In this document: in pieces, positions 11,720 through 42,781 of the stretch
How positions within the stretch are numbered: the stretch's first letter is position 1
How the letters are laid out: every line of letters starts with the position of its first letter
Notes under the pieces: model-generated
What the model was told of the DNA's origin: nothing
What the model saw: the letters and a program-made list of their open reading frames with translations, nothing else
The model's database searches: none
Translations under genes and position numbers: made by a program
Origin: Sulfurimonas sp.
Lineage (GTDB): Bacteria > Campylobacterota > Campylobacteria > Campylobacterales > Sulfurimonadaceae
Length of the DNA stretch: 64,000 bases
Assembly: GCF_029027405.1 (NCBI RefSeq)
Contig: NZ_CP093396.1
Coordinates: 620,001 to 684,000 of the forward strand
Direction: 5' to 3'

Positions 11720-12448
11720 ATGAAATACAAACTATTAAAATTACTATTTTTAGCATTTCTGTTTATAGGACAAAGTGCTTATGCGATAGAACCTCTTTCG
11801 ATCAAGTATGTTGACCCTAAGGCTAGTGAGAAAGCGGATAGTCTTTATAATAAGGCGCATAGAGCGTACTCTCAAGGAAACTATGAAAAAGCAATTGAAC
11901 TTTACAGGTCATCATATGAATATAAAATCTCTGCGGATGTTCTAAATAACTTAGCTGCTACTTTTGAAAAAGTTAAAGACTACGATAATGCTATTAAATG
12001 GTATAAAATAACTATTAATAAGTATCAAGATAAGGATGCAATATTTAATTTAGCGTTCTTATATGATGATAAACTTGCTAAGTATAATAAAGCTATTGAA
12101 TTATATCAACAAGCTTTTGCAAAAGGTATTGTAACTGGGGGGGTGAATTTGGGGATACTGTATGAAGAGAAATTACACAAAATAAAAAAATCTATTTACT
12201 GGTACAAAAAAGCCATAAAAAAAGGTGATATAGATGCAAGAAAAAATCTAGGATTACTTTACCATCAACAAAAAGACAAGCTAAACAGTGCAACTTACAT
12301 GATAGGTATGATAGGACATCCTTACACAAAAGAAAGAGTTTTAGGCTTGTTACGAGATGACTGGAAAATCGACGAACCAACCCTAAAAAAAGCCTACGAA
12401 CTCCAAAAAACTCTAGTTCCAAATCCATATACAGGTGGAATAGAATAG
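11720..12448 (+). CDS. Exported Sel1/TPR-repeat protein, class I (copy A), candidate immunity protein
   Basis: 242 aa. A signal peptide spans residues 1 to about 22 (KLLKLLFLAFLFIGQSAYA), so the protein should be periplasmic. The remainder is tandem Sel1/TPR-like helical repeats (A(I/V)xWYxxAxxxG, NLGxLY). The start lies one base after the effector stop (TAAGATG), which implies translational coupling. The class I leader occurs only behind class I effectors (A, C, D). The C-terminal block from LGLLYHQQKDKLNSAT to NPYTGGIE is shared with copies D, E and F. The repeat loop is coded by a G7 run at 12137-12143 that is in frame here. Immunity is inferred from pairing and location; an adaptor or chaperone role is possible. 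Confidence 0.72.
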   Translation: MKYKLLKLLFLAFLFIGQSAYAIEPLSIKYVDPKASEKADSLYNKAHRAYSQGNYEKAIELYRSSYEYKISADVLNNLAATFEKVKDYDNAIKWYKITINKYQDKDAIFNLAFLYDDKLAKYNKAIELYQQAFAKGIVTGGVNLGILYEEKLHKIKKSIYWYKKAIKKGDIDARKNLGLLYHQQKDKLNSATYMIGMIGHPYTKERVLGLLRDDWKIDEPTLKKAYELQKTLVPNPYTGGIE

Positions 12449-15754: not shown

Positions 15755-16555
15755 ATGAAAATGAAAAGAATGTTTAAAATATTTATATTACTGTTTGTCT
15801 TTGCTTCGCAGTCTCTCCTTGCAGAACAAGATATAAGTGATGAAGCTTTCAAGGCTTATAAAAAAGGTGAAAAACTTTATCAAACCAAGAAATATGATGA
15901 AGCCTTAAAATGGTTTAAAATTTCCTTTGATGAAGATTCATCTAAAGATTTAGCCTTTAACATCGGTTTAACTTATGATGAACTGAAAGATTACCCTAAT
16001 GCTATAAAATGGTATAGAAAAGCTTTTGAGATGGGAGACAAAAAAGGGGGAGCAAACTTAGGACTCCTATACGACGAAAAATTGAAGGATTATCCTAAAG
16101 CTATAAAATGGTATAAAAAAGCCATAAAAAAAGGTAATGTTAGTGCTATAAATAATCTAGCTATATTATATAAACAACAAAAAGATTATCCAAATGCGAT
16201 AAAATGGTATAAAAAAGCTTTTGAGATGGGGAATCTGGATGGTGCATATAACTTAGGTTGTTTATATGATGTAAATAAAAAAGATTTTAAAAATGCCATT
16301 ATTTGGTACAAAAAAGCAGCCAAGAAAGGACATAAAAAAGCTATAAATAATCTTGGTGAAGTTTACCATGATTTAAAAGACAACATCACTGCATCTGCAT
16401 ATGTTTTAGCTGGAATTGTATATGGATATGATAAACAAGAAACTTTTAAGTATTTAAATAAAACTTGGAAAATAGATGAGCCAACCATGATAAAAGCCTA
16501 CAAACTACAACAAACCCTAGACATCCCAAAACACTACATAGGTGACATTGACTAA
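15755..16555 (+). CDS. Exported Sel1-repeat protein, class II (copy B), candidate immunity protein
   Basis: 266 aa, the longest Sel1 copy. A signal peptide spans about residues 1-22 (FILLFVFASQSLLAEQ). About five Sel1-type repeats follow with the consensus YPNAIKWYKKAFEMG and NNLAILYKQQKD. It follows effector B by 6 bp with an AAAGGA ribosome site. It has its own C-terminus (YKLQQTLDIPKHYIGDID), unlike the NPYTGGI end of the other copies. The leader and first repeat match copy E, which also sits behind a class II effector. Periplasmic location would suit neutralising an incoming membrane toxin; this function is inferred. Confidence 0.7.
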   Translation: MKMKRMFKIFILLFVFASQSLLAEQDISDEAFKAYKKGEKLYQTKKYDEALKWFKISFDEDSSKDLAFNIGLTYDELKDYPNAIKWYRKAFEMGDKKGGANLGLLYDEKLKDYPKAIKWYKKAIKKGNVSAINNLAILYKQQKDYPNAIKWYKKAFEMGNLDGAYNLGCLYDVNKKDFKNAIIWYKKAAKKGHKKAINNLGEVYHDLKDNITASAYVLAGIVYGYDKQETFKYLNKTWKIDEPTMIKAYKLQQTLDIPKHYIGDID

Positions 16556-16603: not shown

Positions 16604-17542
16604 TTGGAAAAAGAATCAAATAACATAATTTCTAAATGTGAATCAAGTGTTCTATCATTAAAAGGTTGTTACAATCGAATTCAATGGTGGCAAACCACGA
16701 TAATGATTTGGTTTATTATCGCTATGCTTTTTAACTCATATAATATATTACATTATGAAGTTAACCATCCAAAAAAAGTGATAGTTGAAAAAATTTCAAC
16801 ACAACAAACATCAAATTTTATGTACTTGCAAGAAAATATGCCATCTGAATTAGATTTAACATCTCTTATAAAACAAGGAAATCCTATCCAGCATATTCAA
16901 GGAGTGTTACTCTTTATAACTCTTATGTTAATGTCTTGGATAAGTATTACTTCATCAGTTAAGCGTTTGCATGACATTGATAAATCTGGTTTTTGGTGGT
17001 ATGTAAATTTTATTCCTATAGTTGGTTCGATAATAGTATTTGTTATGAATGTTTTTATTCCATCTAAGAATACACGATATTGTCAATATAAAATTAAAGA
17101 AGACAAAACACAATGGCTTTTTACTCTAGCGGGGATATTATTACTTATCCCCATCTTAATAAATATTATTGATATAACGGATCGCTATGGGACATGGTAT
17201 GTTCAAGCAAGTTTATGGACTCAATACTATATGAAAGATTATATATTTTTTATACTATTATTACTACTTATGGCATTGAGTTTGAACTTTGATAAATTTA
17301 TTAATATATCTTATTCGAAAAAGATGAAAGTGATTCAATATATTTCATTTGCTTATGTTGCTTGGTTGTTTTATAATATCAGTCACTTATTTTTTAATTT
17401 TGAAAGTAATAGTATAATGAGTTATTTTATTTATTATTTTTCATTATTTTTAGAATATGGTATTCAGTTTTCAGCATTATGTATACTTATTTTGAATACA
17501 AATAAAGAACTAAAGAAAGTACAGAATCAAAAAGTATCTTAA
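16604..17542 (+). CDS. DUF805-like integral membrane protein (array unit B)
   Basis: 312 aa, TTG start with AAGGGGG just upstream. The DUF805 signature is visible: a short KGCYNRIQWWQTTIM opening, a TM segment, then SVKRLHDIDKSGFWWYVNFIPIVGSIIVFVMN split over about residues 123-155. Further TM pairs follow near 172-192, 213-231 and 245-303, making six or more. Its first 34 and last 24 residues are nearly identical to the copy at 27476-28417 while the middle has diverged. A membrane protein beside a membrane-acting effector is a typical immunity arrangement, so it may be a second immunity factor. DUF805 has no proven general function. Confidence 0.7.
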   Translation: MEKESNNIISKCESSVLSLKGCYNRIQWWQTTIMIWFIIAMLFNSYNILHYEVNHPKKVIVEKISTQQTSNFMYLQENMPSELDLTSLIKQGNPIQHIQGVLLFITLMLMSWISITSSVKRLHDIDKSGFWWYVNFIPIVGSIIVFVMNVFIPSKNTRYCQYKIKEDKTQWLFTLAGILLLIPILINIIDITDRYGTWYVQASLWTQYYMKDYIFFILLLLLMALSLNFDKFINISYSKKMKVIQYISFAYVAWLFYNISHLFFNFESNSIMSYFIYYFSLFLEYGIQFSALCILILNTNKELKKVQNQKVS

Positions 17543-17605: not shown

Positions 17606-18179
17606 ATGTCAGTTCTTCCCTTAAACATAAAAAACTACCTACTACGAGTAGATGGATGTAAAACTGACAAAGGAGCCGCTCTTGTCTTAGCTAGTCCAGG
17701 ACAAACACAGAGTAAAATAGGTGTAAAGTCTGGAGGAAGTGCTGCAAATATCATTACTAAAGAACTTGAAATTGCAAAAGTAGATACTAAAGAAAATATA
17801 AAAAAAGAGAAATATCAAATTTATCCACTAAGACTAAGTGGGGAGTACATAAGAGCACTAAGAGGAGCAAGAGACTTTAGAGTTCTTAAAGACTATTATC
17901 AAACAAATACTAGTGACTATACTCAAGATAAAATTGTCACAAAAACCGATGCTTATTTATATGTTACAGATGCTATTAAAACTACAGAGTATAAGGTTAT
18001 AAATAGAGGTGACTATTCTAACCCTAAGGTTGAGAAGGTACAGTTTAAAGATACAGATACACAAGTCATTCGTAAATATATACCCTGCTATGAAGAAGAT
18101 GGAAAACTTGAAATCATCTACTCAAATGTAAAACTCACTAAAGAGCAACAGAGTAAGTTCACTCCAGTTTCTGTAACAC
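17606..18179 (+). pseudogene. Effector copy C, 5' part (interrupted by insertion sequences)
   Basis: The first 191 codons of a third effector copy. It starts MSVLPLNIKNYLLRV, keeping only the last part of the PAAR-like domain plus linker (DGCKTDKGAALVLASPG), and then enters the shared N-terminal region. The frame runs into insertion-sequence DNA at 18180 after SVTL and stops at 18262. The rest of the gene resumes at 19869. The two halves would rejoin almost cleanly if the insertion were removed. Confidence 0.8.
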
Positions 18180-18532
18180 TATACTACCCCAATATGTCAA
18201 GACAACTTTTTCAAAAATCTAATTCCCTAAATACCTGTTACCCTATGCTACATTTTCACTAGATTTAGTGTAATTCTCATCATTGATTTTTAAACTATCA
18301 TAATAAACATTCATAGGTTTTTTATATTTCAATGTCTCATGAAATCTTCTGTGATTATAAAATTCTATATAATCCTTAACATCACTTTTGAGAATTGATA
18401 CTCTCTCATATTCATTGAGGTATATTTTTTCAACTTTAGCACTTCTCCAGAACCTCTCAATACAAATATTATCTGTTGCTCTACCTTTGCCATCCATAGA
18501 GATAATTATGTCATTATCTTTTAATGTTTGAG
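18180..18532 (-). mobile_element. Truncated inverted copy of the 1336-bp IS3-family element (right 353 bp)
   Basis: This stretch is the reverse complement of the last 353 bp of the intact element beside it (19516-19868). It includes the terminal sequence TATACTACCCC at 18180 and the last 84 codons of the transposase (18243-18497, minus strand). It stops abruptly where the left end of the intact element begins. The remnant carries the ERVSIL variant found in the copy at 30086-31421, not the ERVSVL variant of its neighbour, so it is not a local duplication of that neighbour. Confidence 0.85.
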
Positions 18533-19868
18533 TATACTACCCCAAGAAAATCAAACAACTATTTCTAAAGTTTAATTCTTAAAAGAGTAAAATTAAACAA
18601 TAAAAATAGAAGGTAATCTTATGAGTCGAAAAAGAACAACATATACAGCAGAATTCAAGACAAAGTTAGTTTTAGAAGTTTTAAAAGAAGATAAGACACT
18701 AAATGAAATAGCAAGTGTAAATAATATCACACCAAAAAACTTACAAAATTGGAAGAAGATATTTTTGGAAAATGCAGAAGTTGCGATGGAACCTGCAAAA
18801 GTAATTAAAGAGTACAAAGAAGAGAATGTAAGATTACAAGCTAAACTTGATGAATATGCAAAGGTTGTAGGTCAACTAACAGTAGAGAAGGACTGGGCGG
18901 TGGGAAAGTTAAGCAGCTTGGACTCTAGCTATAAAAAGGAGTTGATTGATAGAGATGAAAATAAGGCATTATCAGTTGTAAAACAATGTAATCTTATTAA
19001 CTATAACAGAAGTAATTTGTTCTATGCACCAATGGTAAATCTTGCTAAAAATGTAATTAAAAAACATATAGAAAAAGTATTTGAAGAGATACCAAGCTAT
19101 GGCTATATGAAAGTGTATCATCAACTACTAGAGGATGGTTTTCGTGTCAGTCCCAACACAGTGCTGGCATACCGTAGAGAGTTAGGTTTACAGGCTGTTT
19201 TAGCTGTAAGACCACCAAATACAAGCTGGGCGGACAAGCAACATCATAAATACTCTTACAAAATAAGAGGATTAGATATCGTAAGAGCAAACCAAGTATG
19301 GTCAACAGATATAACCTATATTAAAATTAAAGGTGGTATGGTCTATATGGCTGCCATAATTGATTGGTATTCTAAAGCAATATTATCTTGGCGAATATCC
19401 AACACAATGGATACAGATTTAGTCATAGGTGTACTAGATGAAGCACTCGCACTCTATGGTAAGCCTGAAATATTTAATACTGATCAAGGATCACAATATA
19501 CAAGCTGTATCCACACTCAAACATTAAAAGATAATGACATAATTATCTCTATGGATGGCAAAGGTAGAGCAACAGATAATATTTGTATTGAGAGGTTCTG
19601 GAGAAGTGCTAAAGTTGAAAAAATATACCTCAATGAATATGAGAGAGTATCAGTTCTCAAAAGTGATGTTAAGGATTATATAGAATTTTATAATCACAGA
19701 AGATTTCATGAGACATTGAAATATAAAAAACCTATGAATGTTTATTATGATAGTTTAAAAATCAATGATGAGAATTACACTAAATCTAGTGAAAATGTAG
19801 CATAGGGTAACAGGTATTTAGGGAATTAGATTTTTGAAAAAGTTGTCTTGACATATTGGGGTAGTATA
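18533..19868 (+). mobile_element. IS3-family insertion sequence, copy 1 (complete, 1336 bp)
   Basis: Bounded by imperfect inverted repeats of about 30 bp, beginning TATACTACCCCAA on the left and ending TTGGGGTAGTATA on the right. Its length is identical to the copy at 30086-31421. It carries one transposase ORF. No clean target duplication exists, because its left neighbour is the inverted IS remnant and its right neighbour is effector C. This points to a deletion or IS-IS recombination after insertion. The right end carries an outward-facing TTGACA. Confidence 0.9.
18621..19805 (+). CDS. IS3-family transposase (single ORF)
   Basis: 394 aa. The N-terminal helix-turn-helix (YTAEFKTKLVLEVLKEDKTL) is of OrfA type. 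A coiled-coil linker follows near 70-95, then the integrase core with D in VWSTDIT, D in NTDQGSQYTS and E in IERFWRSAK. In many IS3 elements OrfA and OrfB are separate and joined by frameshift; here they form one continuous frame. It differs from the copy at 30174-31358 by one residue near the end (ERVSVL against ERVSIL). It appears intact and probably active or recently active. Confidence 0.92.
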   Translation: MSRKRTTYTAEFKTKLVLEVLKEDKTLNEIASVNNITPKNLQNWKKIFLENAEVAMEPAKVIKEYKEENVRLQAKLDEYAKVVGQLTVEKDWAVGKLSSLDSSYKKELIDRDENKALSVVKQCNLINYNRSNLFYAPMVNLAKNVIKKHIEKVFEEIPSYGYMKVYHQLLEDGFRVSPNTVLAYRRELGLQAVLAVRPPNTSWADKQHHKYSYKIRGLDIVRANQVWSTDITYIKIKGGMVYMAAIIDWYSKAILSWRISNTMDTDLVIGVLDEALALYGKPEIFNTDQGSQYTSCIHTQTLKDNDIIISMDGKGRATDNICIERFWRSAKVEKIYLNEYERVSVLKSDVKDYIEFYNHRRFHETLKYKKPMNVYYDSLKINDENYTKSSENVA

Positions 19869-22751
19869 CTAAGTGGTAAAAAAAATCTTCATTGTATAAA
19901 CCATAAAGATTATTCAAAGTCCATAAAACATATAAATAAAGAGATGAAAGATATTTTAATCTCAAATAAAGAAGCTAAAAAACTAAACAAGTCACACTTA
20001 AACATAGTAGTTGAAATAGATGACCCTATCGGTGAAATAGAAGATTTGTATGAAGAGCTAGAATGTTCTTTTCATACTGCTTATGCACATAACAAACCTT
20101 TAATAGACAGGATTAAAGAACGCAATGCTTATGCCTATAGCGTAGCAAACTTTATGGATGAACTTGAAGTAAACTCAAACGAGAAACAAGAAAGAAAAAA
20201 CACAAAGAAAAAACTCCAAAAGGCTTACTATACTTTAGTTGAAGGGATGAAAGAAGATTTTATACCTTATATTATAGATACTTGTAAAGATAGAGGTTTT
20301 TCATGGAGCATCAAAGATAGTAATTCTTCTTTTATAAGACTAAATGCTTTTGTTGAACATAATGTAGCTATGAGTTACTTAAATGAAGTAAAACTAAATG
20401 CTTCGTTTTTACTCAACACACAACATAACTATAATACCTTTGATGGGAGAAAGATAGAGCATCTTAATGAAAAATGTATCATTGAAAGTAAAAGTCATGA
20501 CTATTTGTGTTTGGGTGTAAGAGCACATATCGATGGTAGTAAAACATCACACAAGTATGCAACAAGTACTAGAGAGAGTTATACAGAGATAACAGCATTA
20601 ACACTTTTTAGCCTCTACTTTAGTGGTAAACATAATGATGTTATCGGTACTAAATATAAAGATGCTATTGAAGACTTTCATTATAATTTAAAGAAGCTAT
20701 CTGCTCATCCAGAGTTTGAGGAAGATATTCAAGAAGAGATTAATGATAAGCTTAAAGACAGTCCTTACACTAAACTCTTTAAAGATAAGAATGGTGACCG
20801 TACTGATAACTTTATTGATGATTATGAAAACTTAGAGACTATCGCTAAAGACTGCGCTTTTGAGTGGGAAGGAAATGATAAAACACAGCTTTTAAAGTTT
20901 GCTACTTTAATCCCTAAAAAAGAGACTTTTAAGTTTTTTTACGAAATCCCAAAACATAGAGAATCCCCTCAAAAGATAAGTGAAACACTCTCCAAAGAAC
21001 TTAAAAGTTCACAGCTAAAAGAACTACTAGAAAAGTACAGTAGTCTAAAAGATACAAGTTTAGAGAGAATAGGCTTACTTTTAAATATAGCTTACTCACT
21101 TACTGCAAGTAGAACTATGTTTGATGAAGAAGTAAATCAAACTTCTCCTTTTAATACAGATAGTGCAGTTATGGACTTTTTAATCTCCATCTCAAAAAAA
21201 CTTCAAGTACTCAAAGCAGATGAACATGAAAAGCTTTATAAAGAGGATATATTTCAACTTTATCATAAAAGCTTACACAGTTTAATCCTTCACTCACTTG
21301 TTAAAGGAAGCTATAACGAAAAAGAGTTTTTAATCCGTCAAGATAATGTAACGAAAAAATTTCTTGATGTCATAGCTCCAGAGACAGCAAAAGAGTACCA
21401 ACTAGATTTAACGAAGCTAGATGATGGAAGTATAGACAAAAACCTACAAGTCAAAAAAACTCATGAAAAACTATTTGCACAGTTAAAAGCACTAGATGGG
21501 ATTACTAGTCAGATTCATGCGGCTGCGGATAAGCAGAGAAAAGTTGATGAGTTTTCAAGTGATAAAGATATTGTAAAAGTACAAAATGCAATCAGAAACT
21601 CCAACCCCTATAAAATAACAATCCCAGCCCTAAAAGGACTAAGTTTCTTTGTAGCTCTCTACCAAACAGGAAAGATACTCAAAGATTACCAAAAAATGAC
21701 TTTAAGCTCACTCCTAGAACTTTCAGTCTCCATCAATGTCTTATCTAAAATTACAGGAGAAGCCGCACAAGCAACTAAGTTATTGTCCTCCAAGGCAATA
21801 GCATATAATATGTTTAAAGCTATGAAAGAGGAGAAGCTTGTTTTTCAAAAAGTGCTTACTAAACTTGCTATCCCTATTGTTATCTTTGGGGCTTACCATG
21901 AGATAGCTTCTTTGAATGATAAAGATTATGATGCAGTTGTTGCTCTTAGTGTTAAAACGGGGCTTACCTTAGCTTTAATGCTCTTTGCCTCAGGTATAGG
22001 AGAAATCTTGATTATAGGTATAGCTATTGAGCTTATTTGGATGTCGATATCAAGCTATATTATTGATACTAATGTCGAAGTTATGATAGAAAAATCTCTC
22101 TTTTACCAAAATGGGCGTAAACCTTATATCTTAGAGAGTTTAAGTAGTGATACTAAAGAGTATCTTTATAAAGGCAATTCTAAAGAGATTCAAAACATCA
22201 CACTTCCTCAAAAAGCTAAAGATGTTAGAGACTTTATCTATGCAAACTACAGTACTCATAAAAAAGAGTTTAATGCTGCGTTTAGTTATGAGCTAAGTTC
22301 TTTTTATGCCACTCTAAAAGGGGTGAATATTGAAAAATCTGGGCGTTCAAAACAATACAAATCAAGTAAAGCAACTTATGCTGTATGTAGTTATGTCTCT
22401 ATCTCTAAAGATTTTTATAAAGATATAAAACGCATTGTACTTCTTGAAGATGATAAAGAGATAGAGATAGATATCTCACAACATGAACTGAAAAATGCTA
22501 AAGAGTATATAGACCTTTTAAGCCATCTTGATATAAGTGACAGTTCGGTTATACAAGAGTATCCTAAAAAAGATACCAAGTTATTACTTCATAGTGATGC
22601 GATTAGTCTAAAATATGATGTTGTCTATTACTATGATGATGCAGGTAAGTATCTAGCTAGAGCGACAGGCGGTGCGTTAAAGATTATAGATATAAAATCT
22701 TTACCTTTAACTAAAGATGATTGTAAAATACTAAATATTCAAATGAGTTAA
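19848..22751 (+). pseudogene. Effector copy C, 3' part: class I membrane module
   Basis: The frame opens with a TTG inside the IS right end (MTYWGSILSG) and becomes effector sequence at 19869. It contains the shared region from KKNLHCINHKDYSKSI, the DDPIGEIEDLYEEL motif, and the class I module with hydrophobic stretches like those of copy A. The C-terminus ILNIQMS is intact and a class I Sel1 gene follows one base later. It might be expressed as a 967-aa fragment if the IS supplies a promoter or start. As it stands it lacks the N-terminal delivery region. Confidence 0.8.
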
Positions 22752-22752
22752 G

Positions 22753-23481
22753 ATGAAATACAAACTATTAAAATTACTGTTTTTAGCATCTCTGTTTATA
22801 GGACAAAGTGCTTATGCGATAGAACCTCTTTCGATTAAATATGTTGACCCTAAGGCTAGTGAGAAAGCGGATAGTCTTTATAATGAGGCACACAGGTTAA
22901 GCGAACAAGGAAAATATGAAAAAGCAATTGAACTTTATAAATCATCGTATGAATATAAAATCTCTGCGGATGTTCTAAATAACTTAGCTGCTACCTTTGA
23001 AAAAATAAAAGATTATGATAACGCTATTAAATGGTATAGAAAAGCGATTAATGAGGGTTCAAGTTTAGGTGCACTAAATTTAGGACTCTTATTCGATGAA
23101 AAATTATCTGATATAAAAAATGCTAAAGTTAACTATCAAATAGCTTATAATCTTGGGAATAGTGATGCAGCTTATAACTTAGCCCTTTTATATGAAGAGA
23201 AACTACATGATATCCCAAACGCAATAAAATGGTACAAAAAAGCAATTCAAAAAGGACATATTTCAGCCATCAAAAATCTAGGTTATCTTTATAGAACAGA
23301 AAAAAAAGATAATCTTTTAGGCTCTGCTTATATGATAGGGTTGATTGATAAAAAATATTCAAAAGAAAAAGTTTTTGATTACCTTCGCAATACACTTAAA
23401 ATCGACGAACCAACCCTAAAAAAAGCCTATGAACTCCAAAAAACTCTAGTTCCAAATCCATACACAGGTGGAATAGAATAG
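22753..23481 (+). CDS. Exported Sel1-repeat protein, class I (copy C), candidate immunity protein
   Basis: 242 aa with the class I signal peptide (KLLKLLFLASLFIGQSAYA). It is coupled to the effector stop exactly as in copies A and D (TAAGATG). The middle repeats differ from copy A (RKAINEGSSLGALNLGLLFDEKL, then YNLGNSDAAYNLALLYEEKL). The last repeat differs too (YRTEKKDNLLGSAYMIG), before the common end YELQKTLVPNPYTGGIE. It remains intact although its effector is broken, as expected if immunity is still useful against sister cells or neighbouring copies. Confidence 0.7.
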   Translation: MKYKLLKLLFLASLFIGQSAYAIEPLSIKYVDPKASEKADSLYNEAHRLSEQGKYEKAIELYKSSYEYKISADVLNNLAATFEKIKDYDNAIKWYRKAINEGSSLGALNLGLLFDEKLSDIKNAKVNYQIAYNLGNSDAAYNLALLYEEKLHDIPNAIKWYKKAIQKGHISAIKNLGYLYRTEKKDNLLGSAYMIGLIDKKYSKEKVFDYLRNTLKIDEPTLKKAYELQKTLVPNPYTGGIE

Positions 23482-26797: not shown

Positions 26798-27427
26798 ATG
26801 AAATACAAACTATTAAAATTACTGTTTTTAGCATTTCTGTTTATAGGACAAAGTGCTTATGCGATAGAACCTCTTTCGATTAAGTATGTTGACCCTAAGG
26901 CTAGTGAGAAAGCGGATAGTCTTTATAATAAGGCACAAAGACTTTATGCACAAAAAAAATATCAAGAAGCTATCCTCTTATATGAAGAATCATATGAATA
27001 TAAACCAAGTAAGGATATTCCTGCTAATACAGGAATATCCTATAAGCATATTGGCGAATATGACAAAGCTTGTAGCTGGTATGAGATAGGTGTTAAAAAA
27101 TTCAATGACAATAAGTCAGCACTAAACTTAGCTTTATTGTATGAAGAAAAGCTAAATGATATTGATAAATCAATCATGTGGTATTTGACCTCAATAAAAC
27201 TGGGTAATATTGATGCGAGAAAAGGATTAGGACTACTTTACCATCAACAAAAAGACAAGCTAAATAGTGCAACCTACATGATAGGAATGATAGGACACCC
27301 TTACACAAAAGAAAGAGTTTTAGGCTTGTTACGAAATGACTGGAAAATAGACGAACCAACCCTAAAAAAAGCCTACGAACTCCAAAAAACTCTAGTTCCA
27401 AACCCATACACAGGTGGCATTGACTAA
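26798..27427 (+). CDS. Exported Sel1-repeat protein, class I (copy D), candidate immunity protein
   Basis: 209 aa, one repeat shorter than copies A and C. It has the class I signal peptide (LAFLFIGQSAYA) and a conserved mature start (EPLSIKYVDPKASEKAD). Its repeats are divergent: YAQKKYQEAILLYEESYEYK and ISYKHIGEYDKACSWYEIG. The C-terminal block HQQKDKLNSATYMIGMIGH to NPYTGGID is shared across classes. The variable centre between constant ends suggests selection or recombination focused on the binding surface. Confidence 0.7.
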   Translation: MKYKLLKLLFLAFLFIGQSAYAIEPLSIKYVDPKASEKADSLYNKAQRLYAQKKYQEAILLYEESYEYKPSKDIPANTGISYKHIGEYDKACSWYEIGVKKFNDNKSALNLALLYEEKLNDIDKSIMWYLTSIKLGNIDARKGLGLLYHQQKDKLNSATYMIGMIGHPYTKERVLGLLRNDWKIDEPTLKKAYELQKTLVPNPYTGGID

Positions 27428-27475: not shown

Positions 27476-28417
27476 TTGGAAAAAGAATCAAATAACATAA
27501 TTTCTAAATGTGAATCAAGTGTTCTATCATTAAAAGGTTGTTACAATCGAATTCAATGGTGGCAAACTACAATAATGGTTTCATTTATTATTTCTATACT
27601 TTTTGGGTTATATAACACACTGCTTGATAAAGTTATCCATTCAAAGGAAGAAATGGTTGGCAAAACTTTAACATATCCAATACCAGATAATATGTTTGTT
27701 CAAATAAATTATCCATTTGATATCAGAGACTCAACATATGATATTGCACCAATAATAAAGTACGGAAATACTTTTGAACATATTGTAGCAATATTACTGT
27801 TTATGGTTCTTATATTAGTGTCTTGGATAAGCATTAGTGCCTCTGTTAAGCGTTTTCATGACATTGATAAATCTGGTTTTTGGTGGTGGATTAATTTTAT
27901 CCCTATAGTTGGTCAGATAACAGTGTTTTTTATGAACTCTTTTCTCTTATCTAAAGATACACAATATTGCGAATGTCAAACTAAAGAAAAAAAAGCACAA
28001 TGGCTTTTTGCTGTAGCAGGGATTTTATTACTTATACCTTTGATAATAGATATTGTAAATTTATACGATTGGAATGTGGGAGCAATGTTTTTTTCTTACG
28101 CTTTTACAGTAGAGAATGTATTTTATATATTATTATTACTACTTATGACATTGATTTTGAATTTTGATAAACTTATTTCTATATCATATTTAAAAAAGAT
28201 GAAAATAACTCGGTATATTTCATATACATATGTTATCTGGTTAGTGTATAATATCATTGAATATATTCTTATACTATACAATGATATACAAATGTTTAAT
28301 TTTACTTTTTGCTTTTGGTTTTCCATAAAATGTGGTATTCAGTTTTCAGCATTATGTATACTTATTTTGAATACAAATAAAGAACTAAAGAAAGTACAGA
28401 ATCAAAAAGTATCCTAA
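27476..28417 (+). CDS. DUF805-like integral membrane protein (array unit D)
   Basis: 313 aa, TTG start behind AAGGGAAAAAA. It has the same opening (KGCYNRIQWWQTTIM) and the DUF805 core SVKRFHDIDKSGFWWWINF with IPIVGQITVFFMN. The periplasmic loop after TM1 (about 50-100) and the later TM segments differ strongly from the sister gene at 16604-17542. The last 24 residues (FSALCILILNTNKELKK...) are the same. It is again followed by a Sel1 3' scar. It follows a class I effector here and a class II effector in the other unit, so it is not class-specific. Confidence 0.7.
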   Translation: MEKESNNIISKCESSVLSLKGCYNRIQWWQTTIMVSFIISILFGLYNTLLDKVIHSKEEMVGKTLTYPIPDNMFVQINYPFDIRDSTYDIAPIIKYGNTFEHIVAILLFMVLILVSWISISASVKRFHDIDKSGFWWWINFIPIVGQITVFFMNSFLLSKDTQYCECQTKEKKAQWLFAVAGILLLIPLIIDIVNLYDWNVGAMFFSYAFTVENVFYILLLLLMTLILNFDKLISISYLKKMKITRYISYTYVIWLVYNIIEYILILYNDIQMFNFTFCFWFSIKCGIQFSALCILILNTNKELKKVQNQKVS

Positions 28418-28480: not shown

Positions 28481-30085
28481 ATGTCAGTTCTTCCCTTAAA
28501 CATAAATAACTACCTACTACGAGTAGATGGATGTAAAACTGACAAAGGAGCCGCTCTTGTCTTAGCTAGTCCAGGACAAACACAGAGTAAAATAGGTGTA
28601 AAGTCTGGAGGAAGTGCTGCAAATATCATTACTGAAGAACTTGAAACTGCAAAAGTAGATACTAAAGAAAATATAAAAAAAGAGAAATATAAAATTTATC
28701 CACTAAGACTAAGTGGAGAATACATAAGAGCATTAAGAGGAGCAAGAGACTTTAGAGTTCTTAAAGACTATTATCAAACAAATACTAGTGACTATACTCA
28801 AGATAAAGTTGTCACAAAAACTGATGCTTATTTATATGTTACAGATGCTATTAAAACTACAGAATATAAGGTTGTAAATAGAGGTGACTATTCTAACCCT
28901 AAGGTTGAGAAGGTACAGTTTAAAGATACAGATACACAAGTAATTCGTAAATATATACCCTGCTATGAAGAAGAGGGAAAACTTGAAATCATCTACTCAA
29001 ATGTAAAACTCACTAAAGAACAACTGAGTAAGTTCACTCCAGTTTCTGTAACACTTACTGATAAAAAGAATCTTCATTGTATAAACCATAAAGATTATTC
29101 AAAGTCCATAAAACATATAAATAAAGAGATGAAAGATATTTTAATCTCAAACAAAGAAGCTAAAAAACTAAACAAGTCACACTTAAACATAGTAGTTGAA
29201 ATAGATGACCCTATCGGTGAAATAGAAGATTTGTATGAAGAGCTAGAATGTTCTTTTCATACTGCTTATGCACATAACAAACCTTTAATAGACAGGATTA
29301 AAGAACGCAATGCTTATGCCTATAGCGTTGCAAACTTTATGGATGAACTTGAAGTAAACTCAAAAGAGAAACAAGAAAGAAAAAACACAAAGAAAAAACT
29401 CAAAGATGCTTACTATACTTTAGTTGAAGGGATGAAAGAAGATTTTATACCTTATATTATAGATACTTGTAAAGATAGAGGTTTTTCATGGAGCATCAAA
29501 GATAGTAATTCTTCTTTTATAAGACTTAATATTTTTGTTGAACATGATGTAGCTATGAGTTACTTAAATGAAGTAAAACTAAATGCTTCGTTTTTACTCA
29601 ACACACAACATAACTATAATACCTTTGATGGAAGAAAGATAGAGCATCTTAATGAAAAATGTATCATTGAAAGTAAAAGTCATGACTATTTGTGTTTAGG
29701 TGTAAGAGCACATATCAATGGTAGTAAAACATCACACAAGTATGCGACAAGTACTAGAGAGAGTTATACAGAGATAACAGCATTAACACTTTTTAGCCTC
29801 TACTTTAGTGGTAAACATAATGATGTTATCGGTACTAAATATAAAGATGCTATTGAAGACTTTCATTATAATTTAAAGAAACTATCTGCTCATCCAGAGT
29901 TTGATGAAGATATTCAAGAAGAGATTAACGATAAGTTCGAAGGCAGTGCTTATGCTAGACTCTTTCAAGATAAAAATGGCAAACGCAGTGATACTTTTAT
30001 AGATGAGTATTCAGATTTAGATACTACTGCTAAATATTGTGCTTATGATTGGAAAGAAAAAGGACATATTAAAGAGTTTAAGTCT
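28481..30085 (+). pseudogene. Effector copy E, 5' part (interrupted by IS copy 2)
   Basis: 535 codons starting MSVLPLNINNYLLRV, the same odd-position N-terminal type as copy C. It includes the full shared region with DDPIGEIEDLYEEL and then enters the class II sequence (QDKNGKRSDTFIDEYSDLD). It is cut at EFKS by the insertion sequence; the open frame runs on to a stop at 30121. A local variant (NDKFEGSAYARLF) distinguishes it from copy B. The remainder resumes at 31422. Confidence 0.8.
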
Positions 30086-31421
30086 TATACTACCCCAAGA
30101 AAATCAAACAACTATTTCTAAAGTTTAATTCTTAAAAGAGTAAAATTAAACAATAAAAATAGAAGGTAATCTTATGAGTCGAAAAAGAACAACATATACA
30201 GCAGAATTCAAGACAAAGTTAGTTTTAGAAGTTTTAAAAGAAGATAAGACACTAAATGAAATAGCAAGTGTAAATAATATCACACCAAAAAACTTACAAA
30301 ATTGGAAGAAGATATTTTTGGAAAATGCAGAAGTTGCGATGGAACCTGCAAAAGTAATTAAAGAGTACAAAGAAGAGAATGTAAGATTACAAGCTAAACT
30401 TGATGAATATGCAAAGGTTGTAGGTCAACTAACAGTAGAGAAGGACTGGGCGGTGGGAAAGTTAAGCAGCTTGGACTCTAGCTATAAAAAGGAGTTGATT
30501 GATAGAGATGAAAATAAGGCATTATCAGTTGTAAAACAATGTAATCTTATTAACTATAACAGAAGTAATTTGTTCTATGCACCAATGGTAAATCTTGCTA
30601 AAAATGTAATTAAAAAACATATAGAAAAAGTATTTGAAGAGATACCAAGCTATGGCTATATGAAAGTGTATCATCAACTACTAGAGGATGGTTTTCGTGT
30701 CAGTCCCAACACAGTGCTGGCATACCGTAGAGAGTTAGGTTTACAGGCTGTTTTAGCTGTAAGACCACCAAATACAAGCTGGGCGGACAAGCAACATCAT
30801 AAATACTCTTACAAAATAAGAGGATTAGATATCGTAAGAGCAAACCAAGTATGGTCAACAGATATAACCTATATTAAAATTAAAGGTGGTATGGTCTATA
30901 TGGCTGCCATAATTGATTGGTATTCTAAAGCAATATTATCTTGGCGAATATCCAACACAATGGATACAGATTTAGTCATAGGTGTACTAGATGAAGCACT
31001 CGCACTCTATGGTAAGCCTGAGATATTTAATACTGATCAAGGGTCACAATATACAAGCTGTATCCACACTCAAACATTAAAAGATAATGACATAATTATC
31101 TCTATGGATGGCAAAGGTAGAGCAACAGATAATATTTGTATTGAGAGGTTCTGGAGAAGTGCTAAAGTTGAAAAAATATACCTCAATGAATATGAGAGAG
31201 TATCAATTCTCAAAAGTGATGTTAAGGATTATATAGAATTTTATAATCACAGAAGATTTCATGAGACATTGAAATATAAAAAACCTATGAATGTTTATTA
31301 TGATAGTTTAAAAATCAATGATGAGAATTACACTAAATCTAGTGAAAATGTAGCATAGGGTAACAGGTATTTAGGGAATTAGATTTTTGAAAAAGTTGTC
31401 TTGACATATTGGGGTAGTATA
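30086..31421 (+). mobile_element. IS3-family insertion sequence, copy 2 (complete, 1336 bp)
   Basis: Same terminal repeats (TATACTACCCCAA ... TTGGGGTAGTATA) and the same length as copy 1. Here the target site is clean: TCT at 30083-30085 is repeated at 31422-31424, a 3-bp duplication of the kind IS3 elements make. The uninterrupted target is seen in copy B (AAGTCTCTTATTCC). It inserted in the same direction as the effector gene. Confidence 0.93.
30174..31358 (+). CDS. IS3-family transposase (single ORF), copy 2
   Basis: 394 aa, near-identical to the ORF at 18621-19805 (ERVSIL here, ERVSVL there). Helix-turn-helix at the N-terminus, integrase core with the DDE residues in STDIT, NTDQGS and CIERFW. 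Intact frame, GAAGGT ribosome site 6 bases ahead of the ATG. An adjacent element end with a fresh 3-bp target duplication suggests recent movement. Confidence 0.92.
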   Translation: MSRKRTTYTAEFKTKLVLEVLKEDKTLNEIASVNNITPKNLQNWKKIFLENAEVAMEPAKVIKEYKEENVRLQAKLDEYAKVVGQLTVEKDWAVGKLSSLDSSYKKELIDRDENKALSVVKQCNLINYNRSNLFYAPMVNLAKNVIKKHIEKVFEEIPSYGYMKVYHQLLEDGFRVSPNTVLAYRRELGLQAVLAVRPPNTSWADKQHHKYSYKIRGLDIVRANQVWSTDITYIKIKGGMVYMAAIIDWYSKAILSWRISNTMDTDLVIGVLDEALALYGKPEIFNTDQGSQYTSCIHTQTLKDNDIIISMDGKGRATDNICIERFWRSAKVEKIYLNEYERVSILKSDVKDYIEFYNHRRFHETLKYKKPMNVYYDSLKINDENYTKSSENVA

Positions 31422-33287
31422 TCTCTTATTCCTAAAGAGGAAACATTTAAGTTCTTTTATGACAAATACAGAAAAACTCCCAAAACATTGAGTGAAGAAC
31501 TCTCTAAACAACTGACAAATCCAGAGCTAAAAACATTATTAAAAAATTATAGTGATTTAAAAGATACAGAGTTTGAGAGAATGGATTTACTTTTAAATAT
31601 AGCTTACTCACTAACTGCTAGTAGAACTATGTTTGATGATGAAGTTACACAGACTTCAGCGTTTAACACTAAGAGTGCTGTCTTAGAGTTTATGAAAGAG
31701 ATTTCTATTAAACTTCAAAGTATAGATGAGAGTGAACATGAAAAACTTTACAAAGAAGATATCTTTACTCTTTATCATCAAAATCTTCATGGCATAATAT
31801 TGCACGCTTTAGTTAAGGGAGAATATAATGAAGATGAGTTTAGTTCAAGAAAAAGCAATGCTAACAAATTCTTAGATGACCTCGCACCTGAGATAGAAAA
31901 AGAGTACAAGCTTGTCCTCTCCAACTTAAACGATGGCAATATCAGTAAAGACCTAAAAGTAAAAAAAGCTCATGAAAAACTCTTTGAACAACTCAAAGCA
32001 CTAGATGGGATAACTAGTAAGATTCATGAGGCTGAGGATAAGCAGAAGAAAGTTGATGATGGACTAACAACAGATAATAATACAGAGACTAAAGAAAAGT
32101 GGGATATAATCCGAAAATCCAAACCCTATAAACTCTCAATCTCAACAATGAAAGGTCTAAGCTTTTTCATAACCTTATTTACAACAGGAGATGCTCTTAA
32201 AACCTACAAGAAAAACGACCTAAAAGCTCTACTAGAAATAACAACAGGCATAAACTCAATCACAAAAACAGTAGTAGAAACAGGAACAAAAGTTTTACCT
32301 AGAACTAAACAAGCTATGTTAATGGTAGATTTTTTACTAGCAGAGCACTCTATCCCTCAAAAGATTATTGCTAAACTTGCAATACCTGCTGTTGTAGTAG
32401 GTGCTTACTATGAGATGGTATCCTTAGAGGATGAAGATTATGATGCTATGCTTATGATTGGTACTAAAGCAGCTATAATAGTAGCCTTGGCATTTGTATC
32501 AGGTATGTGGATAGCCGCAATAGGATATATAGCTCTTGAAATACTTTGGTATATATTCTCTGGTTACTTTATAGACTCAAGAGTTGAAGTTATGATTGAG
32601 AAGTCTCTCTTTTATCAAGATGGACGCAAACCATATATCTTAGAGAGTCTAAGTACAACTACTGGAAACTACTATATTCGTCGTGGTTCAAGAGATGCTC
32701 TAATGCAGGCAAAAGATATAACAAAAATTGGCGGAACTAAAGAGGTAAGAGAGTTTATTTATAAAAACTACTCAGATAATAAACAAGCATTGCAAGCAGC
32801 AGCAAGATATGAGTTTAGTGAGATATATAGAGCCTTGAAAAACATTAGTATAGAAGTAGAAAAAGTTCCTACTTACTTCCTTAACTTTACAAAAACAATG
32901 AATCTTAACCTTAATGGTTACCTTCGTGTTAATAAAGATTACTATGAAGAAATGGAAGGTCTAATCTATCTTATAAAAGATGATAACTATACAGACTATA
33001 TACTCATAGATGCAACTGAAGCTATAGACAAAGAGAATGATAAACTTATAGATATATTTACAAGTTTTAAAGAAGAACTTTCAGAAGCTAAACTAGATGA
33101 GGATAGAAAAAAGAATTATACTATTTTAATAGCTAGTGGTATTACTTCTGTAAAATACAAACTTGATATAAAATATAACAGTAAAAGTGACTGGTTAGGA
33201 ACTAAACTAGTTAAAGAAATCAATTATTATCTAAATGAACTTATACCTATGCCTTTAAGTCCACGAGATTTAGAACTGTTGAAGTAA
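31401..33287 (+). pseudogene. Effector copy E, 3' part: class II membrane module
   Basis: Opens from a TTG within the IS right end (MTYWGSIS) and continues as class II effector from LIPKEETFKFFYDKYRKTP. Hydrophobic segments (KGLSFFITLFTTGD, KLAIPAVVVGAYYEM, ALAFVSGMWIAAIGY) and the tail ending PLSPRDLELLK are intact. A short hypervariable stretch near 32041-32105 (KKVDDGLTTDNNTETK) differs from copy B. A class II Sel1 gene follows after 12 bp. Confidence 0.8.
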
Positions 33288-33299
33288 AGGATTACACTT

Positions 33300-33989
33300 A
33301 TGAAAAAATTATTTAAAATATTTGTACTACTGTTTATATTTGCTTCGCAGTCTCTCCTTGCAGAACAAGATATAAGTGATGAAGCTTTCAAGGCTTATAA
33401 AAAAGGTGAAAAACTTTATCAAACCAAGAAATATGATGAAGCCTTAAAATGGTTGAAAATTTCCTTTGATGAAGACCAATCTAAAGAAGTGGCTTTTAAC
33501 CTTGGTTTAACTTATGATGAACTGAAAGATTACCCTAATGCTATAAAATGGTATAGAAAAGCTTTTGAGATGGGAAATAAAAAGGGGGGAGCAAATTTAG
33601 GACTGTTATATAAAGAACAAAAAGATTATCCAAATGCTATAAAATGGTATAAAAAAGCCATAAAAAAAGGTAATGTTAGTGCTATAAATAATCTAGCTAT
33701 ATTATATAAACAACAAAAAGATTATCCAAATGCTATAAAATGGTATAAAAAAGCCATAAAAAAAGGGCATATTGATGCAAGAAAAAACCTAGGATTACTT
33801 TTTCATCAACAAAAAGACAAGCTAAATAGTGCAACCTACATGATAGGAATGATAGGACACCCTTACACAAAAGAAAGAGTTTTAGGCTTGTTACGAGATG
33901 ACTGGAAAATCGACGAACCAACCCTAAAAAAAGCCTACAAACTCCAAAAAACTCTAGTTCCAAACCCATACACAGGTGGCATTGACTAA
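33300..33989 (+). CDS. Exported Sel1-repeat protein, class II (copy E), candidate immunity protein
   Basis: 229 aa. It has the class II signal peptide (FVLLFIFASQSLLAEQDIS) and repeats of YPNAIKWYKKAIKKG, several almost identical to each other at DNA level (repeated CCAAATGCTATAAAATGG). The C-terminal block is the shared HQQKDKLNSATYMIGMIGH to NPYTGGID. A G6 run at the GGAN codons is in frame. The protein is a chimera: class II front and the same back end as class I copies A and D, evidence of recombination inside the gene. Confidence 0.7.
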   Translation: MKKLFKIFVLLFIFASQSLLAEQDISDEAFKAYKKGEKLYQTKKYDEALKWLKISFDEDQSKEVAFNLGLTYDELKDYPNAIKWYRKAFEMGNKKGGANLGLLYKEQKDYPNAIKWYKKAIKKGNVSAINNLAILYKQQKDYPNAIKWYKKAIKKGHIDARKNLGLLFHQQKDKLNSATYMIGMIGHPYTKERVLGLLRDDWKIDEPTLKKAYKLQKTLVPNPYTGGID

Positions 33990-35096: not shown

Positions 35097-35779
35097 ATGA
35101 AAAAATTATTTAAAATATTGTTATTAGTTAATTTACTCTCAATTCAAATACTGTTTGCGAACAGTGCATCTGAAGATGCCTCAGACAAAGCAACAATATA
35201 TTATGAAAAACAAGACTATAAAGAAGCATTAAAATGGTCAAAAAAATCATTTGACGAAGAAGCATCTAAAGAAGTGGCTTTCAATATTGGGTTGGCTTAT
35301 AAAAGATTAAAAGATTACCAGAACGCTATCAAGTGGTATGAAAAAGCTTTTGAAATGGGAAATACTGATGGGGGGGGGCTAATCTAGGATTATTGTATGA
35401 CGAAGTTTTAAAAGATTATCCAAATGCTATAAAATGGTATAAAAAAGCTATCCAAAAAGGTGATGTTGATGCTATAAATAATCTAGCTATATTATATAAA
35501 GAACAAAAAGATTATCCAAATGCTATAAAATGGTATAAAAAAGCCATAAAAAAAGGGCATATTGATGCAAGAAAAAGCCTAGGCTTACTTTACCATCAAC
35601 AAAAAGACAAGCTAAACAGTGCAACCTACATGATGGGAATGATAGGACATCCTTACACAAAAGAAAGAGTTTTAGGCTTGTTACGAGATGACTGGAAAAT
35701 CGACGAACCAACCCTAAAAAAAGCCTACAAACTCCAAAAAACTCTAGTTCCAAACCCATACACAGGTGGCATTGACTAA
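35097..35779 (+). pseudogene. Exported Sel1-repeat gene, class II-like (copy F), frame broken at a G9 tract
   Basis: It begins MKKLFKILLLVNLLSIQILFA, a signal peptide related to class II but with its own mature start (SASEDASDKAT). The frame reads to NTDGGGLI and stops at 35387. The second half (35393-35779) carries on the normal repeats to NPYTGGID in another frame. The break is at nine Gs (35370-35378). Seven or ten Gs would restore DGGANLGLLYDE. It is either a phase-variable gene caught in the off state, a true pseudogene, or a homopolymer sequencing error. Confidence 0.7.
35370..35378 (+). repeat. Homopolymer G9 tract inside Sel1 copy F
   Basis: Nine consecutive Gs at the GGAN codons of a Sel1 repeat. 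The same codons hold G7 in copy A (12137-12143), G6 in copy E and G5 in copy B, all in frame. Poly-G tracts of this length are classic phase-variation sites in Campylobacter and Helicobacter; action here is inferred. Confidence 0.7.
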
Positions 35780-35782
35780 ACC

Positions 35783-35848
35783 ATGTCTGCCATCCCTAAA
35801 AATGACTCAATTACAAAACTCCGTATGAAGTATTTTTTAGTGAAATGA
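35783..35848 (+). pseudogene. Short remnant of a further cassette start
   Basis: Begins ATGTCTGCCATCCCTAAAAA like copy F and reads MSAIPKNDSITKLRMKYFLVK before a TGA. The first eight codons match the start of copy F, then homology fades. It is the last trace of the array before the tRNA genes. Confidence 0.55.
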
Positions 35849-35944
35849 GTAGAAAGTTAGCTAGTTAATTTAGGTGGAAATTGCACTTATTTTTAGAATT
35901 TGGGTTTGATTTATAAAAAAAGTAATATTTGGAAGGATTTAAAA

Positions 35945-36021
35945 ATGGTGGCCAATCTCGGAATTGAACCAAGGACACACTGATTTTCAGTCAGTTGCTC
36001 TACCGACTGAGCTAATTGGCC
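35945..36021 (-). tRNA. tRNA-Phe (GAA), copy 1
   Basis: Read on the minus strand from 36021, the sequence starts GGCCAATTAGCTCAGTCGG and ends ATTGGCC-A-CCA with CCA encoded. The anticodon loop CTGAAAA gives anticodon GAA (Phe). It is 77 bases, one longer than its neighbour because of an extra A in the D-loop (GGTAAGAGC), and it has TTCAATT in the T-loop. Its 3' end faces the effector array. Confidence 0.95.
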
Positions 36022-36051: not shown

Positions 36052-36127
36052 TGGTGGCCAATCTCGGAATCGAACCAAGGACACACTGATTTTCAGTCAG
36101 TTGCTCTACCGACTGAGCTAATTGGCC
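36052..36127 (-). tRNA. tRNA-Phe (GAA), copy 2
   Basis: 76 bases, minus strand, the same acceptor (GGCCAAT/ATTGGCC), anticodon GAA, TTCGATT T-loop and GGTAGAGC D-arm. It lies 30 bp upstream of copy 1 and is probably in the same transcript. This is the more standard of the two sequences. Confidence 0.96.
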
Positions 36128-41305: not shown

Positions 41306-42781
41306 TTGAGTAAAAAAGTTGTTTTAGTTATAACAGATGGAATAGGATATAGTAGTAAAACAGAGCATAATGCATTTTATAATGCTTTAAAACCTACTTA
41401 CGATAGACTGTTTGAGAAAACACCTCACTCTTTAGTTGATACTTCTGGTTTAAGCGTTGGCTTGCCAGAAGGTCAAATGGGTAACTCTGAAGTTGGTCAT
41501 ATGAGTATTGGAAGTGGGCGTATTTTATACCAAAATTTAGTAAAAATTTCATTGGCTCTAAGTGAGAATAGATTAGAAAAAAATGAAGTACTTCAAGATA
41601 TATTAAATTCTTCTCAAAGACTACATCTTATAGGACTTATGAGTGATGGTGGTGTACATTCTCATATTGATCATTTTATGGGAATTGCAAAAATTGCTGC
41701 AAAAAATGGAAAAAAAGTTTTTTTGCATCTTATAACTGATGGACGAGATGTTTCTCCAACTTCTGCTCAAAAATATTTAAAAATTGTTGAATCACACTTA
41801 AGCGAAAATATTCAAATAGCAACTATTTCAGGTCGTTTTTATGCGATGGATAGAGATAACCGTTGGACAAGACTTCAAAGAGCTTACGAAGCTATTGTAG
41901 AAGCAACTCCTAAAACAGACTTTGAGCCAGCAGGCTATATTGGCTCATCATATGCTCTTGGTGAAACAGATGAGTTTGTAGAACCAACTGCTTTTGAAGG
42001 GTATGACGGACTTAAAGAAGGGGATAGCGTTTTAACTATTAACTTTAGAAGTGATAGAATGAGAGAGTTAGTTACTGCTCTCGGGAGTGCTAACTTTTCA
42101 CATTTTACGAGAAAAACTTTAAATATAAATCTAGCAACAATGACAGAGTATGATAAAAGTTTTTCATATCCTGTTTTATTCTCTAATGATGCCCCCCCCA
42201 ATACACTGGCAGAAGTTATTTCAGCAAATGGATTAAAACAACTTCATACTGCTGAAACCGAAAAGTATGCTCATGTGACATTCTTTTTAAATGGTGGTAT
42301 AGATGAACCTTATGCAAATGAAACTAGAGTTCTCATCCCATCGCCTGATGTGAAAACTTATGATATGAAACCAGAGATGAGTGCAGATGCAGTAGCAGAT
42401 ACAGTGTTAGGGGCAATGGATGAAGATTATGACTTTATAGTAGTAAACTTTGCCAATGGCGATATGGTAGGTCATACTGGTGATGTAGAAGCCGCAAAAA
42501 TAGCTGTAAATACGGTAGACCAGCAACTTGGAAAAATATTAGAAAAAGCAAAAGAGAATAATTATGCTGTTGTTATCACTTCTGACCATGGAAATTGTGA
42601 AGAGATGAAAGATGATGATGGTAATATTTTAACAAATCATACCGTTGGAAAAGTTTGGTGTTTTGTAGTTGCAAATGGAGTAACAAAAGTTAAAGAAGGT
42701 GGTTTAAATAATATTGCACCAACAGTTTTAAAATTAATGGGTCTACAAATTCCATCTGAGATGGATGCTAGTTTAATCTGA
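41306..42781 (+). CDS. gpmI: 2,3-bisphosphoglycerate-independent phosphoglycerate mutase
   Basis: 491 aa cytoplasmic Mn-dependent enzyme interconverting 3- and 2-phosphoglycerate. TTG start with ATAAGGAA upstream. Metal and nucleophile motifs: VITDGIGY, MGNSEVGHMSIGSGR (phospho-serine), LHLITDGRDVSP, GRFYAMDRDNRW, and SDHGNCEEM near the end. A C8 run at 42192-42199 encodes part of NDAPPNT and is in frame. Confidence 0.96.
   Translation: MSKKVVLVITDGIGYSSKTEHNAFYNALKPTYDRLFEKTPHSLVDTSGLSVGLPEGQMGNSEVGHMSIGSGRILYQNLVKISLALSENRLEKNEVLQDILNSSQRLHLIGLMSDGGVHSHIDHFMGIAKIAAKNGKKVFLHLITDGRDVSPTSAQKYLKIVESHLSENIQIATISGRFYAMDRDNRWTRLQRAYEAIVEATPKTDFEPAGYIGSSYALGETDEFVEPTAFEGYDGLKEGDSVLTINFRSDRMRELVTALGSANFSHFTRKTLNINLATMTEYDKSFSYPVLFSNDAPPNTLAEVISANGLKQLHTAETEKYAHVTFFLNGGIDEPYANETRVLIPSPDVKTYDMKPEMSADAVADTVLGAMDEDYDFIVVNFANGDMVGHTGDVEAAKIAVNTVDQQLGKILEKAKENNYAVVITSDHGNCEEMKDDDGNILTNHTVGKVWCFVVANGVTKVKEGGLNNIAPTVLKLMGLQIPSEMDASLI

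Follow-up and report, generated by a model that had tools for sequence, protein, structure and literature searches.

Constant expression of immunity genes is generally taken for granted, since losing one should be suicidal. A Sel1/TPR immunity-like gene of Sulfurimonas sp. that is out of frame at a run of nine guanines (copy F) raises the question of whether slippage of the run could turn such a gene on and off. Copy F lies in an array of effector and Sel1 cassettes within the window, the 64,000-nucleotide stretch that was analysed. The window covers positions 620001-684000 of the genome, which is closed, 2,827,517 bp long, and 99.99% complete.

Reading frames of copy F and a second broken paralogue

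The original prediction held that G9 at 35370-35378 throws copy F out of frame, and the run was located at exactly this place, on the plus strand and at the Gly-Gly of a Sel1 repeat. The ORF that starts the gene (35097-35387) encodes 96 aa and ends a few codons past G9, and the homologous C-terminal portion stays open as far as 35779 in a different frame. Two of the three phases past the run stop at codon 0 and codon 2, and the third runs for 132 codons to its stop, which makes the run a clean all-or-nothing site. Pfam TPR/Sel1 was matched in both halves of the gene. The post-tract part contains 0 stops in its homologous frame, compared with 14 and 10 in the other two, and comparison with copy E gave a dN of 0.037 and a dS of 0.115. 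The post-tract sequence would fit a recent break or a reversible break alike, and gene conversion among the copies could be another way of keeping it fresh. Copy F is a mosaic relative to copy E, with an N-terminal part that is 64% identical and a C-terminal part that is 93% identical; together with the divergence of the Sel1 proteins described below, this suggests recombination or diversification among copies. A promoter scan around copy F revealed nothing distinctive and no terminator-like site, and an RNA family scan of the same region returned two tRNAs and no other RNA family.

A second G9, at G000:C1:719363-719371 on the minus strand (L048:7364-7372), breaks paralogue G (L048:6960-7687, minus strand) in the same way as copy F. 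Here, 133 open codons follow the run, in a post-tract frame that is homologous. The runs lie 40 and 43% into copy F and paralogue G, respectively, neither of them early in the gene or in a promoter, and no second lesion was seen in either gene. Sister gene H, whose downstream DNA is the same as that of G, carries an in-frame G7 after the same GAT codon that precedes G9 in G. This pair of runs in the same context is the best evidence that run length changes, and it is suggestive only.

Shorter runs were also reported in the original prediction, which assigned G7, G6, and G5 to the same codons of copies A, E, and B, all in frame. The three runs are real and in frame, but the claim of shared codons fails for copy A: the runs of B, E, and F occupy the same Sel1 repeat, and that of A occupies the corresponding Gly-Gly in another repeat. 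Nor could the series of lengths be retained as a sign of slippage. Among G5, G6, G7, and G8, the in-frame differences are accounted for by base changes in flanking codons or in the second Gly codon (AAA/AAG, GAT/GAG/ATG, and GGA/GGG) and not by indels. The G8 runs of array Sel1 genes are likewise in frame.

Effector and Sel1 cassettes

Sel1 genes directly behind large effectors form three arrays in the genome, that of the window (Table 1) and two others at 719-732 and 1217-1237 kb. A small Sel1 gene lies directly 3′ of each effector, and this pairing is kept in the window, in arrays 2 and 3, in genome G082, and in an Arcobacter metagenome-assembled genome (MAG).

Table 1. Features of the window array and its surroundings, and G7+ runs of the genome. 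Positions are those of the window except where genome positions are indicated.
Feature	Position	Strand	Remarks
Type I effector, 1227 aa	8035..11718	+	Paired with copy A; N-terminus PAAR-like on inspection; matches VasX_N weakly
Sel1/TPR copy A, intact	11720..12448	+	G7 at 12137-12143, in another repeat than in B/E/F
Type II effector, 1088 aa	12482..15748	+	Paired with copy B; matches the BTH_I2691 family of T6SS effectors weakly
Sel1/TPR copy B, intact	15755..16555	+	G5
Protein behind copy B	16604-17542		DUF805 found; related to 27476-28417
Type I effector split by IS3-family element	17606..22751	+	Transposase 18621-19805; paired with copy C
Sel1/TPR copy C, intact	22753..23481	+	No G-run of 5 or more
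Type I effector, 1093 aa	23515..26796	+	Paired with copy D
Sel1/TPR copy D, intact	26798..27427	+	No G-run of 5 or more
Protein behind copy D	27476-28417		Related to 16604-17542
Type II effector split by IS3-family element	28481..33287	+	Transposase 30174-31358; paired with copy E
Sel1/TPR copy E, intact	33300..33989	+	G6 at 33584-33589
Type II effector C-terminal fragment, 363 aa	33993..35084	+	Paired with copy F
Sel1/TPR copy F, out of frame	35097..35779	+	G9
Remnant of cassette start	35782-35850		Begins MSAIPKND..., then stop
Tandem tRNA genes	35949-36021 and 36055-36127	−	Nearly identical; end the array
Gene with C8 run	41306-42781		491 aa, phosphoglycerate mutase-like by inspection; C8 at 42192-42199, in frame
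G7+ runs (pattern search)	201824, 476814, 632137, 655370 (genome)		632137 in copy A; 655370 in copy F (G9)
G7+ run (pattern search)	662192 (genome)	−	G8, inside window gene 41306-42781
G7+ runs (pattern search)	719363, 723317, 728610, 1230924, 1232711, 1232810 (genome)		719363 is G9; 1230924 and 1232711 are G8

The uninterrupted effector partners are 1088-1299 aa long, that of paralogue G being full length at 1096 aa. They match VasX_N and BTH_I2691, a T6SS effector family, at scores below the curated cut-offs, and the first effector has an N-terminus that appears PAAR-like on inspection of its sequence. A T6SS core operon encoding TssA, TssB, TssC, TssE, TssF, ClpV, and TssJ adjoins the end of array 2. 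No PDB relative of the effector was found by sequence, and no plasmid homologue was found.

Two types of effector are present. Over the last 360 aa, the type I effectors (partners of A, C, D, G, and H) are 94-99% identical and the type II effectors (partners of B, E, F, and I) are 97.5-100% identical; type I and type II are 36-37% identical to one another. The Sel1 partners are more diverse than the effectors, at 62-76% identity for those of type I and 57-80% for those of type II. Inspection of the Sel1 proteins revealed a hydrophobic N-terminal segment resembling a signal peptide. The structure model of copy E is a confident TPR superhelix (mean pLDDT of 91), and a fold search with this model returned generic TPR and Sel1 proteins only, with no specific immunity protein among them.

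The Sel1/TPR proteins most likely neutralize the VasX/BTH_I2691-like T6SS effectors. This assignment is drawn from the gene pairing, the apparent export signal, and a precedent in Pseudomonas aeruginosa, in which the Tli5b immunity proteins of the effector PldB contain Sel1 repeats (PMC13133936). As judged from sequence, the intact copies A, C, D, and H could cover for the broken paralogue G, and B, E, and I for copy F. Since both broken genes have intact counterparts paired with near-identical effectors, losing F or G would not necessarily kill the cell, and the original caveat that other copies would have to cover the loss is borne out at this level.

Several smaller features accompany the arrays. 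The two IS3-family transposases of the window are nearly identical, and the Sel1 genes paired with the split effectors are intact. The related proteins behind copies B and D are possibly membrane immunity or accessory proteins, and a 312-aa ORF lies near copy I of array 2 at the matching place. The short remnant past copy F repeats the start of a cassette, a trace of a lost further cassette. Elsewhere, two Sel1 genes precede a gene for a Tle1-like phospholipase effector in the T6SS operon (L127:8472-13302; G000:C1:739472-744302), and near-identical Sel1 genes of 372-458 aa lie at G000:C1 ∼760-869 kb; these constitute a second large immunity-like family, which is without G7+ runs.

Distribution of G-runs in the genome and in relatives

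The window contains one G9, against 0.01 expected from dinucleotide shuffles of the window, and six G7 matches (overlaps counted), against 0.34 expected. Pattern searches of the closed 2.83-Mb genome located 11 distinct G7+ runs. Effector-paired Sel1 genes hold 8 of these, together with four of the five G8+ runs and both G9 runs. The array Sel1 family makes up ∼0.3% of the genome, for which the naive binomial probability of 8 in 11 is 1e-18; the copies are related by descent, so the eight clustered runs are not independent events. A comparison at the level of codons is a fairer control: Gly-Gly is encoded as GGGGGG at 6 of 16 sites in the intact array Sel1 genes, compared with none of 45 in the remaining window genes and none of 23 in the effectors (Fisher p = 2e-5). 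Chance was ruled out as the origin of the runs by the dinucleotide shuffles and this codon control, and codon use was ruled out as their cause by the same counts at Gly-Gly. In the five other readable Sel1 genes of the genome, the G-run never exceeds 4; three further loci gave no usable gene frame. The C8 run in the phosphoglycerate mutase-like gene is the sole G/C run of at least eight outside the Sel1 family.

The effector was found in 3 of 135 genomes of the genus, its own included. The effector and Sel1 pair of G082 has no G6+ run, and none was seen on the gene strand in the loci read for Sel1 C-terminus homologues from a further 14 genomes of the order. A scan of 84,980 species genomes for G8+ running into the Sel1 N-L-G codons gave seven places, one of them in a Sel1 gene. 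This sole Sel1 match, in the Arcobacter sp. MAG (NORP14), has the same kind of effector adjoining it and carries an in-frame G8 at the same codons; none of the other G7+ runs examined in this MAG lies in a Sel1 gene. In the genus at large, G9 runs are frequent, with one present in 36 of 60 genomes.

Runs of more than seven guanines are classed as hypermutable, at 1e-5 to 1e-2 per division, with values of 4e-4 to 4e-3 for Campylobacter jejuni, which is without mismatch repair (PMC4235727). The G9 of copy F is above this limit. The MutL domain PF01119 was not found in the genome by a search that was positive in 11 of 14 control genomes; a MutS1-type gene is present (G000:C1:1101685-1102023; L126).

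Explanations for the broken frames

The reading preferred here, with a probability of about 0.45, is that the run in copy F is prone to slippage and acts as a translational ON/OFF site within a set of redundant T6SS immunity genes. Copy F would be a member of an exported Sel1/TPR family that likely confers immunity to VasX/BTH_I2691-like T6SS effectors. The run at its Gly-Gly would slip in replication, in a genome without a detected MutL, and at a length of nine, translation would end within a few codons to leave the 96-aa stub. A later change in run length would restore the whole gene, such that each gene would switch at random between full-length and truncated forms, and intact paralogues with near-identical effectors would shield OFF cells from self-killing. 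Slippage in vivo, its reversibility, the immunity function, and cross-protection are thus presumed in this scheme.

The original proposal of phase-variable immunity stands in part. In its favor, the runs exceed chance in number and place and are clustered in one family, both G9 runs break genes of that family, the post-tract frames are intact and conserved, and the Arcobacter homologue has G8 at the same codons. Against it, the runs lie in mid-gene, the effector paired with copy F is a fragment, and the G5/G6/G7 series is not a product of slippage. Homopolymers within coding sequences tend to lie in the first fifth of the gene, where translational switches are expected (PMC2823697), so the positions of both G9 runs count against a switch; an early position is a usual rather than an absolute feature. 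The MutS1 homologue and the order homologues that have no G6+ run are further points against.

A close likeness is to the poly-G contingency loci of C. jejuni and Helicobacter (PMC4965091, PMC2823697), where G7+ runs, which C. jejuni uses (PMC4965091), likewise occur in an AT-rich genome, coding runs are off frame with an intact frame behind them, and mismatch repair is incomplete. Those loci are established as phase-variable, encode mostly enzymes that modify surface structures, and typically carry the run near the 5′ end or promoter, whereas the present case is known from one genome sequence alone, concerns T6SS immunity-like genes with a run in mid-gene, and comes from a genome with few such runs. 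Tli5b resembles the present genes in that several Sel1-repeat immunity paralogues lie beside a T6SS effector (PMC13133936, PMC6684961). PldB is, however, a single effector and a phospholipase D, whereas here a VasX/BTH_I2691-like effector and its Sel1 gene are repeated as cassettes; no mention of a poly-G run was seen in the portions of the Tli5b reports consulted. Immunity arrays at T6SS loci, some beside displaced or truncated effectors, are also found in Vibrio cholerae (PMC5361080), but there unrelated modules were displaced, whereas the present arrays are built of closely related paralogues belonging to two types, many of them beside a complete effector, and carry G-runs.

Poly-G phase variation and immunity arrays (PMC5361080) are thus already known. 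A search of open-licence PMC papers, judged in part by title and abstract, turned up no poly-G switch in a T6SS immunity gene and no use of the terms “phase-variable immunity” or “phase-variable T6SS”, and toxins, immunity, and secretion systems go unmentioned in a consulted review of phase variation. If the preferred reading is true, hypermutable runs inside redundant immunity genes would be a route of phase variation into kin discrimination, and a direct question would be opened, namely whether sister cells kill each other once a copy switches off. The stronger proposal, that poly-G switches in several Sel1 genes directed against near-identical effectors cause a clone constantly to yield cells with differing immunity sets and make kin recognition or sibling killing stochastic, is considered unlikely.

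The main rival, close behind the ON/OFF reading, is a tenable account in which recent slippage inactivated the gene without any adaptive switch, an event of mutation rather than bet-hedging after which the copy will decay. Slips at the Gly-Gly run would have been tolerated because redundancy relaxed selection, and redundant intact copies do exist. The fragmentary effector of copy F suggests a degenerate cassette, so copy F itself may be a relaxed, decaying copy, and the splitting of two effectors by IS3 copies indicates that the window array is decaying in places. Homologues without G6+ runs across the order and the mid-gene position of both runs also fit this account. It is opposed by the retention of runs in many paralogues and in the Arcobacter homologue, against the codon bias of the genome, by the lack of a second lesion in F and G, and by the full-length effector of paralogue G.

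An error of assembly or base-calling, such that the gene would in fact be in frame with a run of different length, is improbable. G homopolymers are the most error-prone places on many platforms, breaks in Illumina contigs are frequent within G8+ runs (PMC4235727), and no other run of the genome is as long as the two affected. An under-called longer run that restored the frame would, however, mean an even longer and less stable tract, and siblings with the same preceding GAT carry G7, so that error from G7 would need the gain of two bases at two separate loci. The G8 runs, moreover, are in frame, and the assembly is closed and nearly complete.

RNA-level read-through of G9, in which slippage by RNA polymerase or the ribosome would give a fixed share of full-length protein and so set dosage rather than switching, is the least probable: it has a parallel in Citrobacter rodentium tssM1, a T6SS gene likewise put out of frame by a homopolymer, whose 11-A run yields two length variants by transcriptional slippage (PMC4256274), and it would accord with the conserved post-tract frame of copy F, but the tssM1 run is of A and lies in a structural gene, whereas here it is of G in an immunity-like gene, and the in-frame paralogues need no such device.
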